From: Nostoc sp. JL34 | Lineage (GTDB): Bacteria > Cyanobacteriota > Cyanobacteriia > Cyanobacteriales > Nostocaceae | Direction: 5' to 3' | Assembly (NCBI RefSeq): GCF_017114945.1 | Contig: NZ_JABXKQ010000037.1 | Location: 1 to 64,000 of the forward strand | Length of the DNA stretch: 64,000 bases | In this document: in pieces, positions 12,468-34,138 of the stretch | Numbering within the stretch: position 1 is the stretch's first letter | Layout of the letters: each line of letters begins with the position of its first letter | Translations under genes and position numbers: made by a program | The notes under the pieces: model-generated | The model's input: only the letters and a program-made list of their open reading frames with translations | What the model was told of the DNA's origin: nothing | The model's database searches: none

Positions 12468-12521
12468 TTTTAAAGTGGCTCAGGTCGGAGTTGAACCAAC
12501 GACCCCAGGCTTATGAGTCCC
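12468..12521. other. Left attachment site (remnant of tRNA-Met 3' end)
   Basis: This 54-bp stretch is identical to 34057-34110, from four T residues outside the tRNA through the T-arm to the 5' side of the anticodon stem. The similarity stops at the next base. It is the displaced 3' end of the original tRNA gene and not a functional tRNA. Confidence 0.93.
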
Positions 12522-13091: not shown

Positions 13092-14732
13092 TTAAGCAAC
13101 TCTATCCATTAAATAGTCTGCTGCTTCCTCTTGATCGTAATAGGTATTATTACTCTCTCTTCTCTTCCAAGCATAGCTAGCTAAAGCCAAGCTCATAACT
13201 GTATCTGTAGGTAAACCTCGATCATCCAATTTATAAAATCTCATTTCAGTTTTAAGTTGCTTCAGACGGTCTAACTCATCATAAGGAATTACAAGTTTAC
13301 CTCTCTCTACAATCCCTGCCAAGTTAGACAGCATAAAAGTTTTATGGTTATGTTTATTATTTTTAGCTGGCTTCTTAGTTGAATTGATTGGGGTACACAT
13401 TAATATCTCTTCAGGTGTAAGCTCCTTCTCTATAGCCTCTTTCAGGTACTGACCAGCTAGGGCTGTCGCATCATAATAAAGTTCACCAGGGAATTGGTTT
13501 AACCTTCTTCTAATTCTTTCAATAGTGCCATCTTGTTGAAATAGTGGAGTCTTACTAATTCTTTCAAAAGCTACTATTCTTAATTCTCTATCAATATATT
13601 GAAGAGTAGTAAGTACAGTTGAGTCACCATTAGTACAACCAGCTACATCAACTCCAGTAAAGAATTGTGAAGTTGGTCCTCCTTTAGGGAGATAAGGATA
13701 GTCAGGATGAGTACCATGTTCAGGTAAACAGAAGCCTGTAACTGGGTCATCATAAGGGAAGAAGCAAGTATGCCTCTCTCCTTTTTCAACAGCAATATCA
13801 AGCCAATTACCAGCAAAGAATGTAGAACCATAGTTGGCAAACTTACCATATACCTCTTCCCTGATCTGAGCCTGGGTCATATTGACCATGTTGGCTTGGA
13901 TAGTTTCAGGGGGATTGACAGGGTTATCAAACTGAGAAAACTCTGCGATCACAACTGAATTATCTTTTTTAAGTTTGCGCTCTTTAAACTCTGCCCATAG
14001 CTTTCTAAAATAAATAGCTCCCTGCCCTGCAGATTCCCCTTCTCCTTGAGGGGTAGAGATAAAGTACTTACGCCCACTAACTTCAGTTCCTCTGACATTA
14101 AGTATTTTCATACGTAAATGTTCTAAGGCATACTCAGAAGCAGACTCATCTAAAGTGGCTATATCTAAATAGAAACCTAGAATGAATCTTCCTCTTTGAA
14201 CAGTAGCTTGAAACCAAATAATACTATTTAAACAAGTTTCTATAAAAGGTTGCTGTCCATCAGAGATGTGCTTAATGAAGCCTATGCTGGTCAGGAAGGG
14301 GCTATCATTAACTAGGTTGATTATTTCATCCTTTACTAACTTTGCTTGCTTCAGAGAGGGCGCACAGTTAATAGATTGAAACCTTTTACTATAGTCACCA
14401 TAGAAGACAGAAGTAGTAGGGCGCTTTCTATAAAATAAAAACCATAAATGCATAAGAGCAGTAACAAAAGTCTTACCACTTCTACTACCTGCTTTTAATA
14501 TTCCTTCTTGAGCATTAACAGCTTGCCTTAACCATTGTCTTTGTTTAGGGTGCCCTTTAACTGTCTCACCTGTTTCAGGATGTAAACGCTCAACTTCATT
14601 TAAATATAAGTTTACCTTTTCCCCTAAAAAGTATTTAACAAATAACACAGGATCATTTGCTCCAGCTAAGAATTGTTGTCTTAATGTTTCTGACTTTAAT
14701 ATACCTTCTAAATCTGATGGGATAGCACTCAT
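13092..14732 (-). CDS. terL: Phage terminase large subunit
   Basis: The ATP-driven DNA packaging motor and headful nuclease. The ATPase has a Walker A-like KAGSRSGKT at 80-88 and Walker B ATLDES with Asp195-Glu196. The C-terminal RNase H-like nuclease starts FFTGVDVAG (Asp362), continues with ELYYDATALAG and ends with an Asp-containing LPTDTVMSLALASYAW segment. The length of 546 residues is typical. It is the last gene of the structural operon and overlaps the preceding gene by one base. Most tailed phages place the terminase genes at the start of the morphogenesis operon, so this order is unusual. Confidence 0.92.
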   Translation of the reverse strand: MSAIPSDLEGILKSETLRQQFLAGANDPVLFVKYFLGEKVNLYLNEVERLHPETGETVKGHPKQRQWLRQAVNAQEGILKAGSRSGKTFVTALMHLWFLFYRKRPTTSVFYGDYSKRFQSINCAPSLKQAKLVKDEIINLVNDSPFLTSIGFIKHISDGQQPFIETCLNSIIWFQATVQRGRFILGFYLDIATLDESASEYALEHLRMKILNVRGTEVSGRKYFISTPQGEGESAGQGAIYFRKLWAEFKERKLKKDNSVVIAEFSQFDNPVNPPETIQANMVNMTQAQIREEVYGKFANYGSTFFAGNWLDIAVEKGERHTCFFPYDDPVTGFCLPEHGTHPDYPYLPKGGPTSQFFTGVDVAGCTNGDSTVLTTLQYIDRELRIVAFERISKTPLFQQDGTIERIRRRLNQFPGELYYDATALAGQYLKEAIEKELTPEEILMCTPINSTKKPAKNNKHNHKTFMLSNLAGIVERGKLVIPYDELDRLKQLKTEMRFYKLDDRGLPTDTVMSLALASYAWKRRESNNTYYDQEEAADYLMDRVA

Positions 14733-23160: not shown

Positions 23161-24231
23161 CTAAACAGTAGGAGCTGTGTAGGAAGTAGCATTCAATTGA
23201 AGTACAGCAGCAGCACCACGATGGTTAGGAGCAAATCCCCAACCTTCAGACATGATCGTGTTTTCCAGCGCAAATGTGCTCTTAACATCAGTCTGCAATC
23301 CAGCTAGTGAAGCTACAGCAGGTTGACGGCTAAGTAAAGGTGTGCGATTAGCTCCGCCGTCTGCGCCTATGCAAACTGCATATCCAACTGGAACTATAGG
23401 AGTTTTGACTACTGGCACATTACTAACAAAACCTACCAAACCTTCAAAAGGAGATAGTTGGCGTTGAGTTTCACCAGAAGCACCAGCAGTATTAATTTGC
23501 AGGTTACGACCAAGTTGATTTTCAGAAGGTATAAATCCTGTCAAACTTTCAAGTGAGTAATCATAATCTGATACCCAAATTTCAAGTTTACGGAAACCAT
23601 GATGGCGAACTTTGTCAATTAGCTTAGTGCGTATTTCAGTAGGAGTAGGGCTACCAGCAGAAGCTACAGCGTTGTAATGTTGCAAGTCTCCAGCTTGGAA
23701 TGTATAACCATTAATAGCAGGAGAAGCTGTGCTTGTATCACTGTTATAAAAAGGTAAGCTGGTAGTTTGATACTTATTAGTAGAATCAATAATTACTCTG
23801 TTAGTGTTGCTAAACAGAGCTTGACGCAGAGAAGAGAACCTAGACTTTTGGAAGCTGGTCAATTTAGATTGCACATAAGCTGCAACTTCTTCTGAAGTCA
23901 TCAATTGTACAGCTCTTTTGGTAAGAGTCAAAGCTGTGAAAAATTCAGAGTAAGGAATCTCTTGCACATAATCATAGATCGTTTCTCTAGAAGTAGGTCT
24001 AGCTGCTTCTGTATAACTTTCTAAATCTTCTCCATCATAAACTTTTACAACTTTTTGAGGAGTAGAAACATTCTCAACTAAAGGACCAAAGAACCTTGAG
24101 TTCATATCAGTATAGAACTGCAAATCTTGGTCTAGTTCACGCAGAATAGAAACAACACTGATGTTGTCAACCGTGATTAATTCAGCATCATTTGAATTTA
24201 ATTCACCAAAATAGGTAGTGTTATAAGTCAT
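23161..24231 (-). CDS. Major capsid protein (HK97-like fold likely)
   Basis: A 356-residue protein placed between decoration-like and tail genes. Features typical of HK97-fold capsid proteins are an extended N-terminus, an ITVDNISVVSILRELDQDL helix region, a long central spine helix around SEEVAAYVQSKLTSFQKSRF, and a beta-rich P-domain near the C-terminus with a VPVVKTPIVPVGYAVCIG segment. The codon usage is noticeably less AT-rich than in neighbouring genes, as expected for a highly expressed product. The family assignment is by architecture and position. Confidence 0.8.
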   Translation of the reverse strand: MTYNTTYFGELNSNDAELITVDNISVVSILRELDQDLQFYTDMNSRFFGPLVENVSTPQKVVKVYDGEDLESYTEAARPTSRETIYDYVQEIPYSEFFTALTLTKRAVQLMTSEEVAAYVQSKLTSFQKSRFSSLRQALFSNTNRVIIDSTNKYQTTSLPFYNSDTSTASPAINGYTFQAGDLQHYNAVASAGSPTPTEIRTKLIDKVRHHGFRKLEIWVSDYDYSLESLTGFIPSENQLGRNLQINTAGASGETQRQLSPFEGLVGFVSNVPVVKTPIVPVGYAVCIGADGGANRTPLLSRQPAVASLAGLQTDVKSTFALENTIMSEGWGFAPNHRGAAAVLQLNATSYTAPTV

Positions 24232-28032: not shown

Positions 28033-28254
28033 ATGAAACTAGATAAGATTACTTCAATTAGATTATTCCAAGGTCACAATGAGAAGCTAGAGATTGTAGC
28101 TAACCATCAGGGTTTAGATAGAGCTGATATTTTAAGGAAGGCTGTTAATGATTACTTAGCTATCTACTATAATAATCATTCCTTTCTTCCTACTACATTG
28201 AAAGAGGCGGCAGAAGATGAGGCTATCTTTAAAGTAAGCTCCTCTATTAAATAG
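28033..28254 (+). CDS. Ribbon-helix-helix DNA-binding protein
   Basis: 73 residues. The N-terminal strand KLDKITSIRLFQGHNEKLE followed by two helices (IVANHQGLDRADILRKAV) matches the RHH/Arc-MetJ pattern, with G-L-D-R-A-D-I-L-R-K-A-V typical of helix B and its turn. It is probably a repressor of the early or structural promoters in the adjacent non-coding region. It is followed by its own terminator. Confidence 0.75.
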   Translation: MKLDKITSIRLFQGHNEKLEIVANHQGLDRADILRKAVNDYLAIYYNNHSFLPTTLKEAAEDEAIFKVSSSIK

Positions 28255-28321: not shown

Positions 28322-29068
28322 ATGTCAAATATTACTATTCAAACAATTGATTCCACTTTTGTAGTTGACTCTAGACTTATTGCTGCTGAACTTGGTATTA
28401 CACATAAGTCATTTAAAGAAACAATTAGAACTTATAAAACTGACTTTGAAGAGTTTGGCAACCTCGCCGTTCACACCGAAGGGGTTAAAGGAACTTCTAG
28501 TTACTCTGAATTTCTTTACTTAACTGAAGACCACTCTTACTTATCTTTAACTTATAGCCATAATACCCCTCAGGTTCGACGAGCGAAAGTTAACTTAGTA
28601 AAGGCATTCAGAATAGCAAGAGAATCAACTGCTCCTAAAATGTCTCTTACCCTGATTGAATCTGTAGAAGCATACTTGAATACTCTTAAGGAAGTAGAGG
28701 CTACTAAACTCCTTCTAGCTGCTGCTGATGAGAAAGTAAAGGAGATGCAGCCTAAGGTTGAAGAATATAATTTACTTTGTGAGCAAGGTAAAGATATTAA
28801 AGTAGGTGAGCTATCTAAAATTCTTGGTGTAAAGAATATGGGACCTATAAAGCTATTTAAATTCCTTAATGCTCAAAAAGTTCTTATAGAAAAAAGTAAC
28901 TTACCTTATGCTGAATATATTCATTGCTTTAATGTGGTGCGTAAACTTAATCCTCATAATGGGGATGTATATAATGTACCTTTAGTCAATACTGAAGGTG
29001 TTAGCCTTATTATTAAAAAGTTAAAAGCTGCTGGTCATATTGTTACTTCTATGTCTAAAGCCGCCTAA
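28322..29068 (+). CDS. Rha-type phage regulatory protein with KilAC antirepressor domain
   Basis: 248 residues. The N-terminal Rha domain has VDSRLIAAELGITHKSFKET, then SYSEFLYLTEDHSYLSLTYS and VRRAKVNLVKAFR. A coiled-coil linker (~115-160) precedes a KilAC/ANT-like C-terminal domain with IKVGELSKILGVKNMGPIKL. Such proteins act as antirepressors or host-interference regulators in temperate phages. It is the second early gene of the element, just upstream of the replication gene, consistent with lysis-lysogeny control. Confidence 0.8.
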   Translation: MSNITIQTIDSTFVVDSRLIAAELGITHKSFKETIRTYKTDFEEFGNLAVHTEGVKGTSSYSEFLYLTEDHSYLSLTYSHNTPQVRRAKVNLVKAFRIARESTAPKMSLTLIESVEAYLNTLKEVEATKLLLAAADEKVKEMQPKVEEYNLLCEQGKDIKVGELSKILGVKNMGPIKLFKFLNAQKVLIEKSNLPYAEYIHCFNVVRKLNPHNGDVYNVPLVNTEGVSLIIKKLKAAGHIVTSMSKAA

Positions 29069-29080
29069 TAGATAAATAAC

Positions 29081-29111
29081 AAAGGGAGGGATGACTATTT
29101 CTCTCTCCTTT
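29081..29111. terminator. Imperfect hairpin between antirepressor and replication genes
   Basis: AAAGGGAGGGA (29081-29091) pairs with TCTCTCTCCTTT (29100-29111) with one bulged G and G-U pairs. It may attenuate transcription into the replication gene. Confidence 0.4.
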
Positions 29112-29172
29112 ATTTCCAAGAAAACTAAAACTTAGATTTTAACTTATATAAAAAATTAATATACAACTGAAT

Positions 29173-30726
29173 ATGTCTGCACATATAATCAATACCTTTA
29201 GAAGCACAGAGAAAGTTAAATTATTTATTGATACCTTACTACAAGATTACAATCAACCTACATATCAAGCTTTTATTCACATCCTTGATGGAACCATGCA
29301 CTCATACCTACAGAAAGAAGAAGGTTGGGTTCCTCTGCCTTCCACACTAATTAGGAAGCATTGGAAGAGGGCTAAGGTAGATTTAAAAGGATTATTAAAT
29401 GCTGGTTTAATAGAGGTCAAGGTAATAGGTGAAATAGAAGTGGCTGAAGGAGTTATACTAACTCAAACCTACTCAAGGAGAGATAACCAATGCACTGAGT
29501 ATAGAATCTGCCCTGAGATTCTAGATATTATTTCTACTCAGTCCCCTAAAACATTATCAGATTATAAGAATGCTAAATACTATAATTTAATGAAGGGTAC
29601 TGCTATGAAGGTAGTACAGAGATATAGAAAAGTTGATGAGAATAAACATTCTTTTCCTAAATTAGTTCTTGATGCTATGTCTATTATTGAAAGCTGCCCA
29701 GTAAATCAAGTAGCCCTTGAGAAGTATATAGGTAAATTAGAAGCTGATTTAGACCCTGACTTTGGTGCTGATAATTTACAAAAAGCTAGAAAACTATATG
29801 CTATTGCTAACTACTGCTACACAAATATTATGAACAACATCAAAGAAGAATTAACTGATGGGCTTATAACCTACAATGTTGTATTCAAGGACCCACAAAA
29901 CTCTGGTCGGTTAACTGAAAAGGGTGGGATGCAAGCTTGTCCAAGAGAAATGAAGAAGGTAGGCTTCTCTAATATTCCTAACATCAGAAACTATGATTTG
30001 AAATCTAGCCAAGTATACGGTTTAATCCAATGGTTTAAGTATGCTGGTATTAGTACCAACTGGTTAGACAGGTACCTAAGGCAAGATAAGCAGGTTTATG
30101 CTGACAGGGTTGGTATTTCAAAGGATCGATGGAAAGAGTGCTTCATGGCTTTAGTTATGGCAGCAAGGATTACTAAACAAACTAGTAGTACTAGGTTTGA
30201 ATCAACGAAGGTAATCAGAAAAGGTAAAGAAGTTGAAGTAGGACCTACTGAAGCTATCATTGCTGCATTACTTGAAGAGGCAAATGGGGATATATTCTTA
30301 GCAATGGAATTCTATAATAAATTTCACAATGAGGTAGCTGAACTCAAAATTAATATTGATGACTGGCAGGATTGGTTGATTAAAACTCACGTACCTTTAG
30401 TTTCTATTTGCCCTGGTGGTAAGCAAATAATATATAACAGAGCTGGAGGAACCTTTGACCTTAGTTCATATAAAAATGAAAAGGGTGAATGGACTACCCT
30501 GAACAAGCTAAAGAGTAGATTATCTGCTTTCCTTTTACAAGGAGGGGAGGCAGCATACATTCACCATTTAACTTGGGTTAGCCAACATTATGGATATAAG
30601 GTTCTTTCAAATCAGCATGATGGGCTAGTGACTATAGGAGTCATACCACAGGCAGCTATGGACTATGCTTCGAGAGAAAGTGGGTTGGAGGATTACGCTT
30701 TGCTTGAAGAAAAGGAATTCTGTTAA
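29173..30726 (+). CDS. Replication protein: winged-helix N-terminus + family A DNA polymerase-like core
   Basis: 517 residues. The N-terminal ~120 residues (VPLPSTLIRKHWKRAKVDLK, then LLNAGLIEVK) look like a winged-helix domain. The C-terminal half carries the family A polymerase order: motif A-like NYDLKSSQVYGL (Asp275, Ser-Gln at 279-280), then a stretch DRYLRQDKQVYADRVGISKD aligning with the usual fingers entry, RLSAFLLQGGEAAYIHHL (449-466) matching the QGTAAD helix, and motif C NQHDGLV (His482-Asp483). Motif C has Gly where HDE is usual. No 3'-5' exonuclease region is visible. I infer the element's replicase or primase-like initiator. Confidence 0.7.
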   Translation: MSAHIINTFRSTEKVKLFIDTLLQDYNQPTYQAFIHILDGTMHSYLQKEEGWVPLPSTLIRKHWKRAKVDLKGLLNAGLIEVKVIGEIEVAEGVILTQTYSRRDNQCTEYRICPEILDIISTQSPKTLSDYKNAKYYNLMKGTAMKVVQRYRKVDENKHSFPKLVLDAMSIIESCPVNQVALEKYIGKLEADLDPDFGADNLQKARKLYAIANYCYTNIMNNIKEELTDGLITYNVVFKDPQNSGRLTEKGGMQACPREMKKVGFSNIPNIRNYDLKSSQVYGLIQWFKYAGISTNWLDRYLRQDKQVYADRVGISKDRWKECFMALVMAARITKQTSSTRFESTKVIRKGKEVEVGPTEAIIAALLEEANGDIFLAMEFYNKFHNEVAELKINIDDWQDWLIKTHVPLVSICPGGKQIIYNRAGGTFDLSSYKNEKGEWTTLNKLKSRLSAFLLQGGEAAYIHHLTWVSQHYGYKVLSNQHDGLVTIGVIPQAAMDYASRESGLEDYALLEEKEFC

Positions 30727-30760
30727 ATTAGACTGAAGATTACTATAAGCCTCTACGGGC

Positions 30761-30809
30761 AAATAAGGGGTGGTTGAACTTAAGCTTCGCCGCCCTATTT
30801 TGTTTTTTT
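30761..30809 (+). terminator. Terminator after the replication gene
   Basis: AAATAAGGGGTGG (30761-30773) pairs, with two bulges, with CCGCCCTATTT (30790-30800), followed by TGTTTTTTTA. It ends the early transcript 35 bp after the stop codon. Confidence 0.6.
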
Positions 30810-30828
30810 ACTGAAAAAAAAAGAAATA

Positions 30829-31211
30829 TAGGAAGGGTAGGAATAGGAGAAGATATTGGGGGATATGGATGAGGAATAGAGATAGAGATAACTTAATATA
30901 TAGAGTATGGCTAGTTGGCTAAGGTGATGGCTGAAAGGCATACCATATAAAGGTTTCAAGCGTTTTACTGAGGTAGCACATTGATAGTAACCTGACGGTT
31001 GAAAAGGGCGAGGGCAGGGGATATTTTTTTTTACTTAGCATAGGAAGTTAGGTATAGGAATATAAGGAGATATAGAGGTAGCGAGGGGAAGATAAGATAT
31101 CTAGAGTGTATAGTATGGCTAGTTAGCTATAGCAACCTCTGTAACCTATACTAGGTAAGCTTTATAGCCATTTTGCTGAGGTAGCACATTTATACTTGCT
31201 TGATGGTTGAA
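30829..31211 (+). repeat. Tandem ~210-bp imperfect duplication, non-coding
   Basis: Copy 1 (about 30829-31003) and copy 2 (about 31041-31211) share GTATGGCTAGTT (30905 / 31113), CTGAGGTAGCACATT within 30963-30982 / 31171-31190, and a TGA(C/T)GGTTGAA block (30993 / 31201). The spacing between blocks is identical in both copies (58 and 30 bp). Each copy starts with a long purine-rich tract of GGAAGG/GATAGAG words. No open frame spans them. Constant spacing with diverged filler suggests a structured RNA or a protein-binding array. Confidence 0.65.
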
Positions 31212-31248
31212 TTAAGGTCAGGCTTAATGCGATCGCACATACAGGTAA

Positions 31249-31584
31249 TCAATTTGAATTTTTATAGTAAGTTTCCCAATCATCTACTATAAAAGTAACA
31301 TCATCAACTCTTCCTGTTTTATTTGCAAAAGCAGCAGCTACTTCCATTGAGGAAACCCACTTTTGTATCCAGTCTATATTTTTACCATAATGGGTAAATA
31401 AGTCTTTAGTAATTAACTGTATTTGCAATTCAAAAGGTTTTTTATCATCTTGACCTCTAAACCACGCTCCTGCACTATTCTGACCCTTTAAGTAATTAGA
31501 CCTTATCTCTTTTTTAGAATCTTCAATAAATTCTTTGATTGCTATATCAAATGGTATCTCTTGATCAGGATTGCCTTCAGACAT
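31249..31584 (-). CDS. Hypothetical protein of the element (111 aa)
   Basis: Not recognised. Acidic, mostly helical (FDIAIKEFIEDSKKEIRSNY), with an aromatic central part (AWFRGQDDKKPFELQIQLIT) and no membrane segment or known motif. It lies on the minus strand between the duplication and the integrase region, in a position where lysogeny or accessory genes are common. It is probably transcribed alone. Confidence 0.5.
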   Translation of the reverse strand: MSEGNPDQEIPFDIAIKEFIEDSKKEIRSNYLKGQNSAGAWFRGQDDKKPFELQIQLITKDLFTHYGKNIDWIQKWVSSMEVAAAFANKTGRVDDVTFIVDDWETYYKNSN

Positions 31585-32814: not shown

Positions 32815-33849
32815 TTAAAATATTTCTGGCACTTCAAGTTGTTGGATTATTCCTGAATAATGCTTGTATATTACTTCAGGAGAATTACCCACCCATGAGG
32901 CTACTTGCTTAACACTAATACCTGCCTCCAGAGATAAGGTAATAAAAGTATGGCGACAGTGATATTGAGGTAGATAATACCTAATTAGATCATCATTCAC
33001 TAATTTAGTTAATATAGGTTTCCACACTCTATTTAGAAAATTATGAGTATTTAGCTCTCTACCATTGCGGTTACAAAATAGTAATTTCTCAGCTTGCCCA
33101 TACCCAATATTATTCAAAATCTCTCTCAATTGATTATTGATAGGAAATAATCTAATTTGATGAGTTTTTGTATCTTTCCTAATTCGGACATCAGAAGGTA
33201 CAGCTTCTGCAAAAGTAATGTGTGTAGCAGTAATATGTTTCCACTTCAATGCCACAGCTTCTTCAGGTCTACAGCCTGAGAGAAATAATAGACGAACATA
33301 ATTGACATAATATGAATGAGGCAGTGGTGAATACTTAGGACAATATTTATTGCTAATAAAAGCATCAATAATAGTATTTATTTCCTCTCTGTTAAAAGTG
33401 AGTATAGTGCTATCTTTTCTTTTGGTCTTAATACTTTTAGCTAAATCTTTGAAGGGATTACTTTCTATTAGCTTAGATAGGGCAGCCCAATTACAGCAGG
33501 CATTCATTTGTTTAAGAGTGCGCTTGGCTGTTTCAGCAGAATAAGTACTCAGTAAATGATCCCTTACCATCACTGCTTGATTAATATCAGCAGTAGGTAA
33601 TCCTCTGATGCGCTTCTCTATTAATGAGTAGTCACGGACAAGAGTTGATTCCTGTACTTGACCATTTTTAAACTGAGTATACTTTTCCCATAAATCAAGT
33701 AGGCTGTATACCTTTTGTTTCTTAGGGGTAGCGGTGTGGTCAGCTTTGTATTTGGCAAGGGTAGGGTCAAAATAGCCAGCTAGGATATCTAACTCTATTC
33801 GTCGTGCCTGAATCTCAGCAGCCACTCTGTTCTCTGGGGTGTCAACCAA
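32815..33849 (-). CDS. int: Tyrosine recombinase (integrase), main open frame
   Basis: Site-specific recombinase of the phage integrase family. The 344 codons open after the UGA hold the rest of the arm domain (DTPENRVAAEIQARRIELDI), a SAM-like core-binding domain, and the catalytic domain with Arg194 (SGCRPEEAV), a YHCRHTF box with Arg299, and the tyrosine in EVIYKHY (Tyr328). The first codon of this frame is TTG and is not a good start. The natural ATG lies 31 codons upstream, interrupted by TGA. It adjoins the att site in tRNA-Met, as expected. See the next entry. Confidence 0.85.
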   Translation of the reverse strand: MVDTPENRVAAEIQARRIELDILAGYFDPTLAKYKADHTATPKKQKVYSLLDLWEKYTQFKNGQVQESTLVRDYSLIEKRIRGLPTADINQAVMVRDHLLSTYSAETAKRTLKQMNACCNWAALSKLIESNPFKDLAKSIKTKRKDSTILTFNREEINTIIDAFISNKYCPKYSPLPHSYYVNYVRLLFLSGCRPEEAVALKWKHITATHITFAEAVPSDVRIRKDTKTHQIRLFPINNQLREILNNIGYGQAEKLLFCNRNGRELNTHNFLNRVWKPILTKLVNDDLIRYYLPQYHCRHTFITLSLEAGISVKQVASWVGNSPEVIYKHYSGIIQQLEVPEIF

Positions 33850-34056: not shown

Positions 34057-34110
34057 TTTTAAAGTGGCTCAGGTCGGAGTTGAACCAACGACCCCAGGCT
34101 TATGAGTCCC
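34057..34110. other. Right attachment site within tRNA-Met
   Basis: 54 bp identical to 12468-12521. It supplies the 3' half of the tRNA, so the gene remains intact after integration. The element lies to its left, and the original 5' part of the tRNA lies to its right. Confidence 0.93.
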
Positions 34111-34138
34111 GTGCTCTAACCAACTGAGCTACTGAGCC
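34065..34138 (-). tRNA. tRNA-Met (CAT anticodon), elongator type
   Basis: 74 nt, read on the minus strand from 34138. The acceptor arm GGCTCAG pairs with CTGAGCC, the D-arm GCTC with GAGC, the anticodon loop is CTCATAA, and the T-arm is GTTGG-TTCAACT-CCGAC. CCA is not encoded. One A-G opposition closes the anticodon stem. A CAT anticodon could also be tRNA-Ile2 after lysidine modification, but the body resembles elongator Met. It is the integration target of the element. Confidence 0.93.

Follow-up and report, generated by a model that had tools for sequence, protein, structure and literature searches.

The window (the whole 64,000-nt stretch of Nostoc sp. JL34 DNA analysed here) holds a reading frame at 29173-30726 on the + strand, open throughout, which, judged by the frame, its predicted fold and its relatives, encodes a compact family-A polymerase-like protein of 517 amino acids. 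The gene lies in a 21.6 kb prophage (12468-34110) bounded by perfect 54-bp repeats at a tRNA-Met gene, with the left attachment-site copy at 12468-12521 and the right copy, at 34057-34110, overlapping the tRNA-Met (34064-34138, - strand). The prophage encodes an integrase (32815-33849, - strand; phrog_1 1.1e-38, PF00589 2.9e-8), a terminase large subunit (13092-14732, - strand; phrog_2 3.7e-16), a major head protein (23161-24231, - strand; phrog_3990 9.6e-26), a small ribbon-helix-helix-like regulator (28033-28254, + strand; phrog_876 1.3e-5) and, upstream of the polymerase, an antirepressor with Rha and KilAC/ANT domains (28322-29068, + strand; PF03374 3.7e-13, PF09669 3.7e-10). It looks complete and is small for a tailed phage, and the reading frames of its structural region mostly lack a match to a named family. 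Twenty-seven ORFs were found, of which 25 were scanned (the two skipped have 54 and 61 codons), giving 4 Pfam and 18 PHROG families, 4 of the latter carrying no description; in these 25 ORFs Pfam and PHROGs revealed no family named for replication and no helicase, nor any SSB family by sequence profiles, which detect such partners far less well than structure does. Across the ORFs scanned the polymerase gene is the sole recognisable replication gene of the small prophage. A contig of Cuspidothrix issatschenkoi (L029; L-numbers label the relative-bearing loci compared with the window) shares with the window an integrase (77% identical) and a 482-aa structural-region protein (72%) but the two polymerases are only 32% identical, suggesting that within one prophage type the replication module has been exchanged.

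Sequence profiles did not place the 517-aa protein. Pfam and NCBIfam searches gave no family up to E 10, plasmid Rep profiles included, a PHROGs search gave a single match that was not significant (E 0.36), phmmer against PDB chains found nothing up to E 10, and PF00476 (DNA_pol_A) was unmatched by the 9 family members tested, up to E 1, so the profile search to which a preliminary description of this DNA had looked produced neither a PF00476 nor a plasmid Rep match. Profile-profile comparison with seven PolAs aligned the fingers Lys, the Q-G helix and the H-D of motif C as expected but was marginal (p=0.049), and the case therefore rests on the fold. An AlphaFold2 model built from 18 sequences (pLDDT 86, pTM 0.81) gave, in a Foldseek search of the PDB, 269 matches, 148 of them with E<=0.001; the best was 8jrb_A (E 2.2e-6) and the best 50 of the 269 were all family-A DNA polymerases, the outcome that the preliminary description had anticipated for a structure prediction. 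TM-scores to these polymerases were 0.33-0.45 (by query length), indicating that the match is to the polymerase core only and not to the periphery. Among predicted viral proteins the best structural match was an uncharacterised Dickeya phage protein (E 7.7e-11), followed by other unnamed or uncharacterised phage proteins and then by annotated polymerases.

In the alignment of the 18 sequences (the window protein and 17 others, that of L017 being partial) 14 columns were invariant (Q254, K261, N273, D275, S279, Q280, A310, K321, G457, E459, H482, D483, G484 and K514), and these include what we take to be the spots where family-A polymerases keep catalytic residues. With such invariance the residues named in the preliminary description (D275-L-K-S-S-Q280, R449...Q456-G-G-E-A-A and Q481-H482-D483-G484), all of which are present, are more than a chance resemblance. 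S244-G245-R246 (29902-29910, + strand), with G245 and R246 nearly invariant and accompanied by the invariant Q254 and K261, is presumably the counterpart of the T-G-R motif that precedes motif A in family-A polymerases. Motif A itself, R272-N-Y-D275-L-K-S-S-Q280-V (29986-30015, + strand), has N273, D275, S279 and Q280 invariant in the 18 rows, and Q280, at Asp+5, occupies what we take to be the steric-gate position of PolA. The fingers helix (motif B; residues 317-328, 30121-30156, + strand) had been called poorly matched, but its K321 is invariant, lies in a predicted helix and is brought into register with the PolA O-helix by the p=0.049 alignment; the PolA O-helix has the spacing K-x7-Y-G, and at +8 and +9 from K321 there is usually a large hydrophobic residue and a small one (M-A in the window, M-G or F-G in several relatives), which fits better than was claimed. 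The R449...L-Q456-G-x-E-A-A helix (30517-30555, + strand), with G457 and E459 invariant, was profile-aligned with the N-x3-Q-G helix of PolA, and motif C, N480-Q-H482-D483-G484 (30610-30624, + strand), forms a beta hairpin in the model and was aligned to the PolA HDE. The Gly previously remarked upon in place of the Glu of motif C is indeed there, but it is not a local loss, as H-D-G is invariant in all 18 sequences. In the model Asp275 is part of the strand 271-276, and Asp483 sits where the hairpin 476-480/484-488 turns, a predicted placement that is as expected of a family-A palm. A core with the predicted family-A polymerase fold and intact catalytic positions, D275, K321 and D483 among them, is thus well supported by the Foldseek matches and the alignment, upholding the earlier proposal, and the compact size and the absence of a recognisable exonuclease are also borne out, no exonuclease family being matched by the protein with Pfam profiles.

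The N-terminal domain (residues 1-160; 29173-29652, + strand) was modelled apart with AlphaFold2 (pLDDT 85.9). A Foldseek search of this model against the PDB found nothing at E<=0.001, exonucleases included, and the best matches, at E 0.15 or worse, were mostly winged-helix proteins, which by our own assignment accounted for 16 or 17 of the top 20 (PadR, RTP and MarR types, RosR and ScpB). The predicted domain is compatible with the winged helix proposed at the outset, which is weakly supported.

Relatives of the protein were found in 4 of 59 near genomes and in 6 of 386 same-phylum genomes (the source genome counted in both), in 2 of 72,556 plasmid records by tblastn and, weakly (E 0.01-0.05), in 6 of 50,697 phage records; a Vibrio phage relative used as the query brought up 14 phage records. 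An alignment-based scan of viral contigs gave 10 relative loci, where a scan with a single protein as query gave none, and genome contigs gave 11 loci, two of them the same plasmid. Hosts beyond the cyanobacteria included a SAR324 MAG, Salinivenus and one unplaced MAG, and therefore the family is not solely cyanobacterial: it is divergent and occurs in jumbo phages and a few other bacteria as well as in the prophages and plasmids of cyanobacteria. In a tree of 21 rows the window protein groups with those of L010 and L011 (support 100/99), while the deep branches (the phage rows, L033, L034 and L014) are long and their placement is uncertain. In L004/L005, L007 and L017 the gene is split or shortened, and so it can be lost. 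We could not find a shrunken family-A polymerase of this kind described in the open-licence PMC literature; a description may exist elsewhere.

The 520 nt 3' of the polymerase gene contain no ORF of 60 codons. They contain a purine tract (30810-30909, + strand; 77% purine), which is the most strand-asymmetric 100-nt window of the 64 kb, and an imperfect direct repeat of about 170 bp (30828-31000 and 31040-31208, + strand) that emerged by gapped alignment, with a local alignment score of 70 against 34 for the best of 200 shuffles; a repeat finder reported no repeat in 30700-31260, nor a direct repeat upstream of the gene in 28950-29180. Just 3' of the gene, at 30767-30810, an inverted repeat followed by a T run looks terminator-like by eye and was not picked up by the terminator scan; promoter- and terminator-like matches around the gene were about as many in shuffled sequence. 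Examination of 29 locus rows, 6 of which were judged duplicates to leave 23 distinct loci, showed a tract, defined as a 100-nt window in the 900 nt downstream whose purine fraction departs from 0.5 by 0.27 or more, in 11 of the 23, against 39 of 3,222 overlapping stretches in a background of 17 x 20 kb from a related chromosome. All 11 fall among the 16 cyanobacterial loci and viral contigs that we grouped with them, and the 12 loci lacking a downstream tract are L012 (the same as L026), L014, L020, L021, L030, L031, L033, L034 and the phage rows L008 and L022-L024. The tract is upstream in L026 and on both sides in L019, and L016 has, besides its downstream tract, a second one with a similar tail (L016:6250-6360) 1.7 kb upstream of the polymerase gene. 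The hexamer ATAGTA follows the tract in 11 of 14 regions, compared with 9 in the best shuffle; some of these regions are related, and the hexamer is only a lead.

A G/A-rich tract favours a stable RNA-DNA hybrid, as for ColE1, and the protein might accordingly be a private replacement for host Pol I that extends the 3' end of an R-loop RNA at the tract, with no de novo priming. The adjacency of tract and gene in those 11 loci is in keeping with this, as is the Vibrio phage GR11A (L008:3951-6720), where the polymerase relative is followed by a gene annotated as ribonuclease HI, although that locus has no tract. Against it, the purine-rich strand varies, being the coding strand in most tract loci and the opposite strand in L017, L019, L028 and plasmid6, and we consider a ColE1-like scheme unlikely.

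Beyond the tract, the alignment of 15 post-tract segments revealed a common 32-bp block, chosen by eye, and positions were ranked against it with a leave-group-out weight matrix (the tested group being excluded from training). In the window a first dyad-like copy (30929-30960, + strand) ranked 1 of 127,938 positions, with a score of 25.8 against a background maximum of 16.7, and a second (31137-31168, + strand) ranked 3, scoring 24.4 on the - strand and 21.5 on the + strand; the other 14 segments ranked from 1 to 8 within their own loci, ranks that are somewhat optimistic because the by-eye choice of the block drew on these same aligned segments. When 18 loci (15 distinct) were scanned, the best site scored above every one of 680,000 background positions (maximum 16.7-18.2) in 11 of the 15, by a small margin in L006 (17.3 versus 16.7), and no site above background was found in L028, L020, L030 or L031; L028 has a tract without a site, and its sister plasmid has a marginal site (17.3 versus 16.7). 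Scanning of the other 8 distinct loci, for which the background maximum was 17.2, gave a clear site of 26.6 in L014, one that had no part in the training and lies 565 nt before a polymerase gene whose product is only 26% identical, and none above background in L008, L022-L024 or L034; sites in L021 (19.1, at 7.5 kb from the gene) and L033 (17.3, at 3.1 kb) were not counted. A site above background thus lies within 1 kb of the polymerase gene in 12 of the 23 distinct loci. Tract and near site are both absent from L008, L022-L024, L020, L021, L030, L031, L033 and L034 and, with the tract missing downstream in 12 and a near site missing in 11 of the 23, neither element extends to the whole family. 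L019 has another strong dyad-like site (L019:11745-11776), 7 kb from its polymerase gene.

Complementarity reached 49% at the best centre, the median for 24 centres being 23%, an excess that makes the sites look like imperfect dyads; taken singly, 7 of the 15 segments were below P 0.05 for dyad symmetry and window copy 1 was at 0.057. A conserved hairpin was rejected as the post-tract element, since among 10 segments only those of L029 (z -5.0), L017 (-2.4) and L019 (-2.0) clearly beat shuffles in folding, and the element was treated as a DNA dyad. From the arrangement of the sequence we read the two dyad-like sites and the purine tract 3' of the gene as a candidate origin, a feature on which the preliminary description was silent. 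The sites might instead belong to the antirepressor or another regulator, dyads being typical operators, and sites and tract would then be antirepressor or repressor operators or a promoter region unrelated to the polymerase. An antirepressor gene is found just upstream in the window, L003 and L016, and one of AntA type in L029, but tblastn with the window antirepressor found none in the site-bearing L010, L011, L025 and L026, a soft absence because the same search missed the antirepressor of L016. In 7 of the 11 site-bearing loci of the first scan (the window, L002, L003, L010, L019, L025 and L029) a site lies 195-213 nt 3' of the polymerase gene, and a purely regulatory function seems rather improbable to us, the candidate origin being the reading that we prefer.

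The replication genes that accompany the relatives bear on what the polymerase does. Pfam scans covering 21 of the 29 ORFs of a 13.7-kb Calothrix plasmid and 4 of the 21 ORFs of contig L028, which resembles it, matched 11 families, mostly weakly, including a resolvase and a HerA-like ATPase, and no Pfam Rep family was found among these ORFs. A search of 12 relative-bearing records, in which the viral ones may be fragments, found PolA in 5, DnaB in 4 and the DnaG zinc ribbon in 2, all of them among the six larger records (45-266 kb), although G434, which belongs to these, has neither PolA nor DnaB; none of the three was found in the other six (four viral contigs of 25.7-36.8 kb and two plasmids, 13.7-36.8 kb overall). 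In L020 the polymerase gene comes first in a cluster of genes on one strand, the others including those for DnaB and for a PolA with an exonuclease as well as a primase-like gene. Since the small records lack matches to PolA, DnaB and the DnaG zinc ribbon, and the larger ones mostly have a PolA of their own, as in the L020 cluster, the role common to the compact polymerases is unlikely to be elongation and is more likely to be the starting of DNA. That they replace the primase in large phages was considered and dropped, as L020 has a separate primase-like gene and so does not require the compact polymerase to act as a primase. Of the loci inspected, those with a DnaB gene near the polymerase are L020 and L021, where polymerase-headed replication clusters (L020:7947-17311, and L021) also include the exonuclease-bearing PolA, that of L020 containing a sub-threshold match to intein splicing and only the L020 cluster having the primase-like gene. 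L017:7980-8720, scanned as a neighbour, proved to be the N-terminal half of a split polymerase gene and its empty result is uninformative about neighbours. The source genome has a second PolA-type match on contig C26 (L038), with one TGA within the matched stretch.

As the compact polymerase is extra to a conventional PolA in five of the six larger records, it could be an accessory or repair polymerase rather than an initiator. It is nevertheless the sole recognisable replication gene in the small prophage, contigs and plasmids as far as these were scanned, and small elements would rarely be expected to spend their sole such gene on repair, so that we think this role quite unlikely. A T7-type single-subunit RNA polymerase with the dyad-like sites as its promoters is very improbable, since, although T7 RNA polymerase has the same palm and the divPolA2 proteins compared below have been discussed in print as a possible RNA polymerase, the best 50 of the 269 PDB matches are all DNA polymerases, the profile comparison with a single T7 RNA polymerase sequence gave p=0.14, and the steric-gate position holds Gln in the compact polymerase and Gly in T7 RNA polymerase.

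The nearest worked-out parallel to the compact polymerase is CCPol-MP which, with the PolA-SSB primases, belongs to SCCmec and other mobile elements of the Bacillota and has a family-A core that starts DNA synthesis, as shown for CCPol-MP and otherwise proposed in the passages concerned (PMC7581432, PMC10061031). According to the former source, CCPol-MP prefers a purine start and primes at sequence downstream of the helicase gene, the helicase-bound sequence preferred for priming lying 3' of that gene (PMC7581432), and according to the latter the OB-fold SSB partners are found far better by structure than by sequence (PMC10061031). The likeness, as far as these passages go, is that of a family-A core on a mobile element; the differences are that CCPol needs a separate OB-fold protein and the helicase of its operon, neither of which was recognised in the window prophage, and that CCPol is annotated as an A-family polymerase, whereas the compact family has no PF00476 match. 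The divPolA2 proteins are described, in passages of PMC11348598, as occurring in barbaviruses and Vibrio phages in addition to a regular polymerase, with an accessory or repair role suggested and the possibility of an RNA polymerase discussed, and as being compact and exonuclease-less, with a PolA palm and an N-terminal domain unlike known thumbs. The likeness to the compact polymerase is evident, but in the window prophage no regular polymerase was recognised, and kinship is not significant by profile: comparison with six divPolA2 sequences (AUR84708 and relatives) gave p=0.073, the short alignment falling on the stretch of the G-R and motif A; divPolA2 against PolA gave p=1.8e-4. Motif C also differs, being F/Y/H-D-E/D/S in the six divPolA2 sequences aligned and H-D-G in the compact polymerase.

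Conventional PolA and T7 gp5 share with the compact polymerase the palm, the fingers helix Lys, the Q-G helix and the motif C Asp, in the same order, but the latter has no recognisable exonuclease, a different N-terminal domain and only 517 amino acids, with H-D-G for H-D-E and Q for E at motif A +5. The piPolB enzyme is a mobile-element polymerase able to start synthesis; it and the compact polymerase are both carried on mobile elements, piPolB belonging to family B and the compact polymerase to family A. It is named, as the polymerase of pipolins, in PMC10061031. For phage YerA41, too, a PolA-like enzyme that needs no primer has been proposed, according to a passage of PMC9023294. CyRepA and CyRepX are replication proteins of cyanobacterial plasmids, for which the relevant passages of PMC10899382 mention no polymerase domain.

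Taken together, we put forward, with about even confidence, that the protein is a putative element-encoded, origin-specific replication initiator with a family-A DNA polymerase as its core. The polymerase fold, the invariant catalytic positions, the want of a recognisable exonuclease, the carriage on mobile elements and the conserved cis elements are supported by computation, and from these we infer a DNA-binding N-terminus, an origin and de novo priming. The N-terminal domain would bind the two 32-bp dyad-like sites 3' of the gene, the palm would make the first short strand on the adjoining purine/pyrimidine tract, either de novo or from the end of a transcript, and synthesis would then pass to the host replisome or, in large phages, to the helicase and PolA that the phage itself encodes. 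More tentatively, and as a possibility that we would not yet favour, this may be a one-protein initiator, in which a family-A polymerase that carries an origin-binding domain in the same chain recognises the 32-bp dyad beside the purine tract and starts without a primer, a helicase or an SSB partner. It would then be the family-A counterpart of piPolB or of the ColE2-type Rep primases, employed by small prophages and plasmids of cyanobacteria and also by jumbo phages, there as a module for firing the origin.

With CCPol-MP and piPolB it has become possible to test how a polymerase starts without a primer, which is still an open question, and the compact polymerase family is possibly a simpler case, comprising a single short protein, for which no partner has yet been recognised, and a conserved cis region next to its gene. 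If the proposed role is correct, the family would provide a replication protein for a class of cyanobacterial prophages and small plasmids in which the genes are annotated largely as hypothetical, together with a compact replicon for cyanobacterial genetics.
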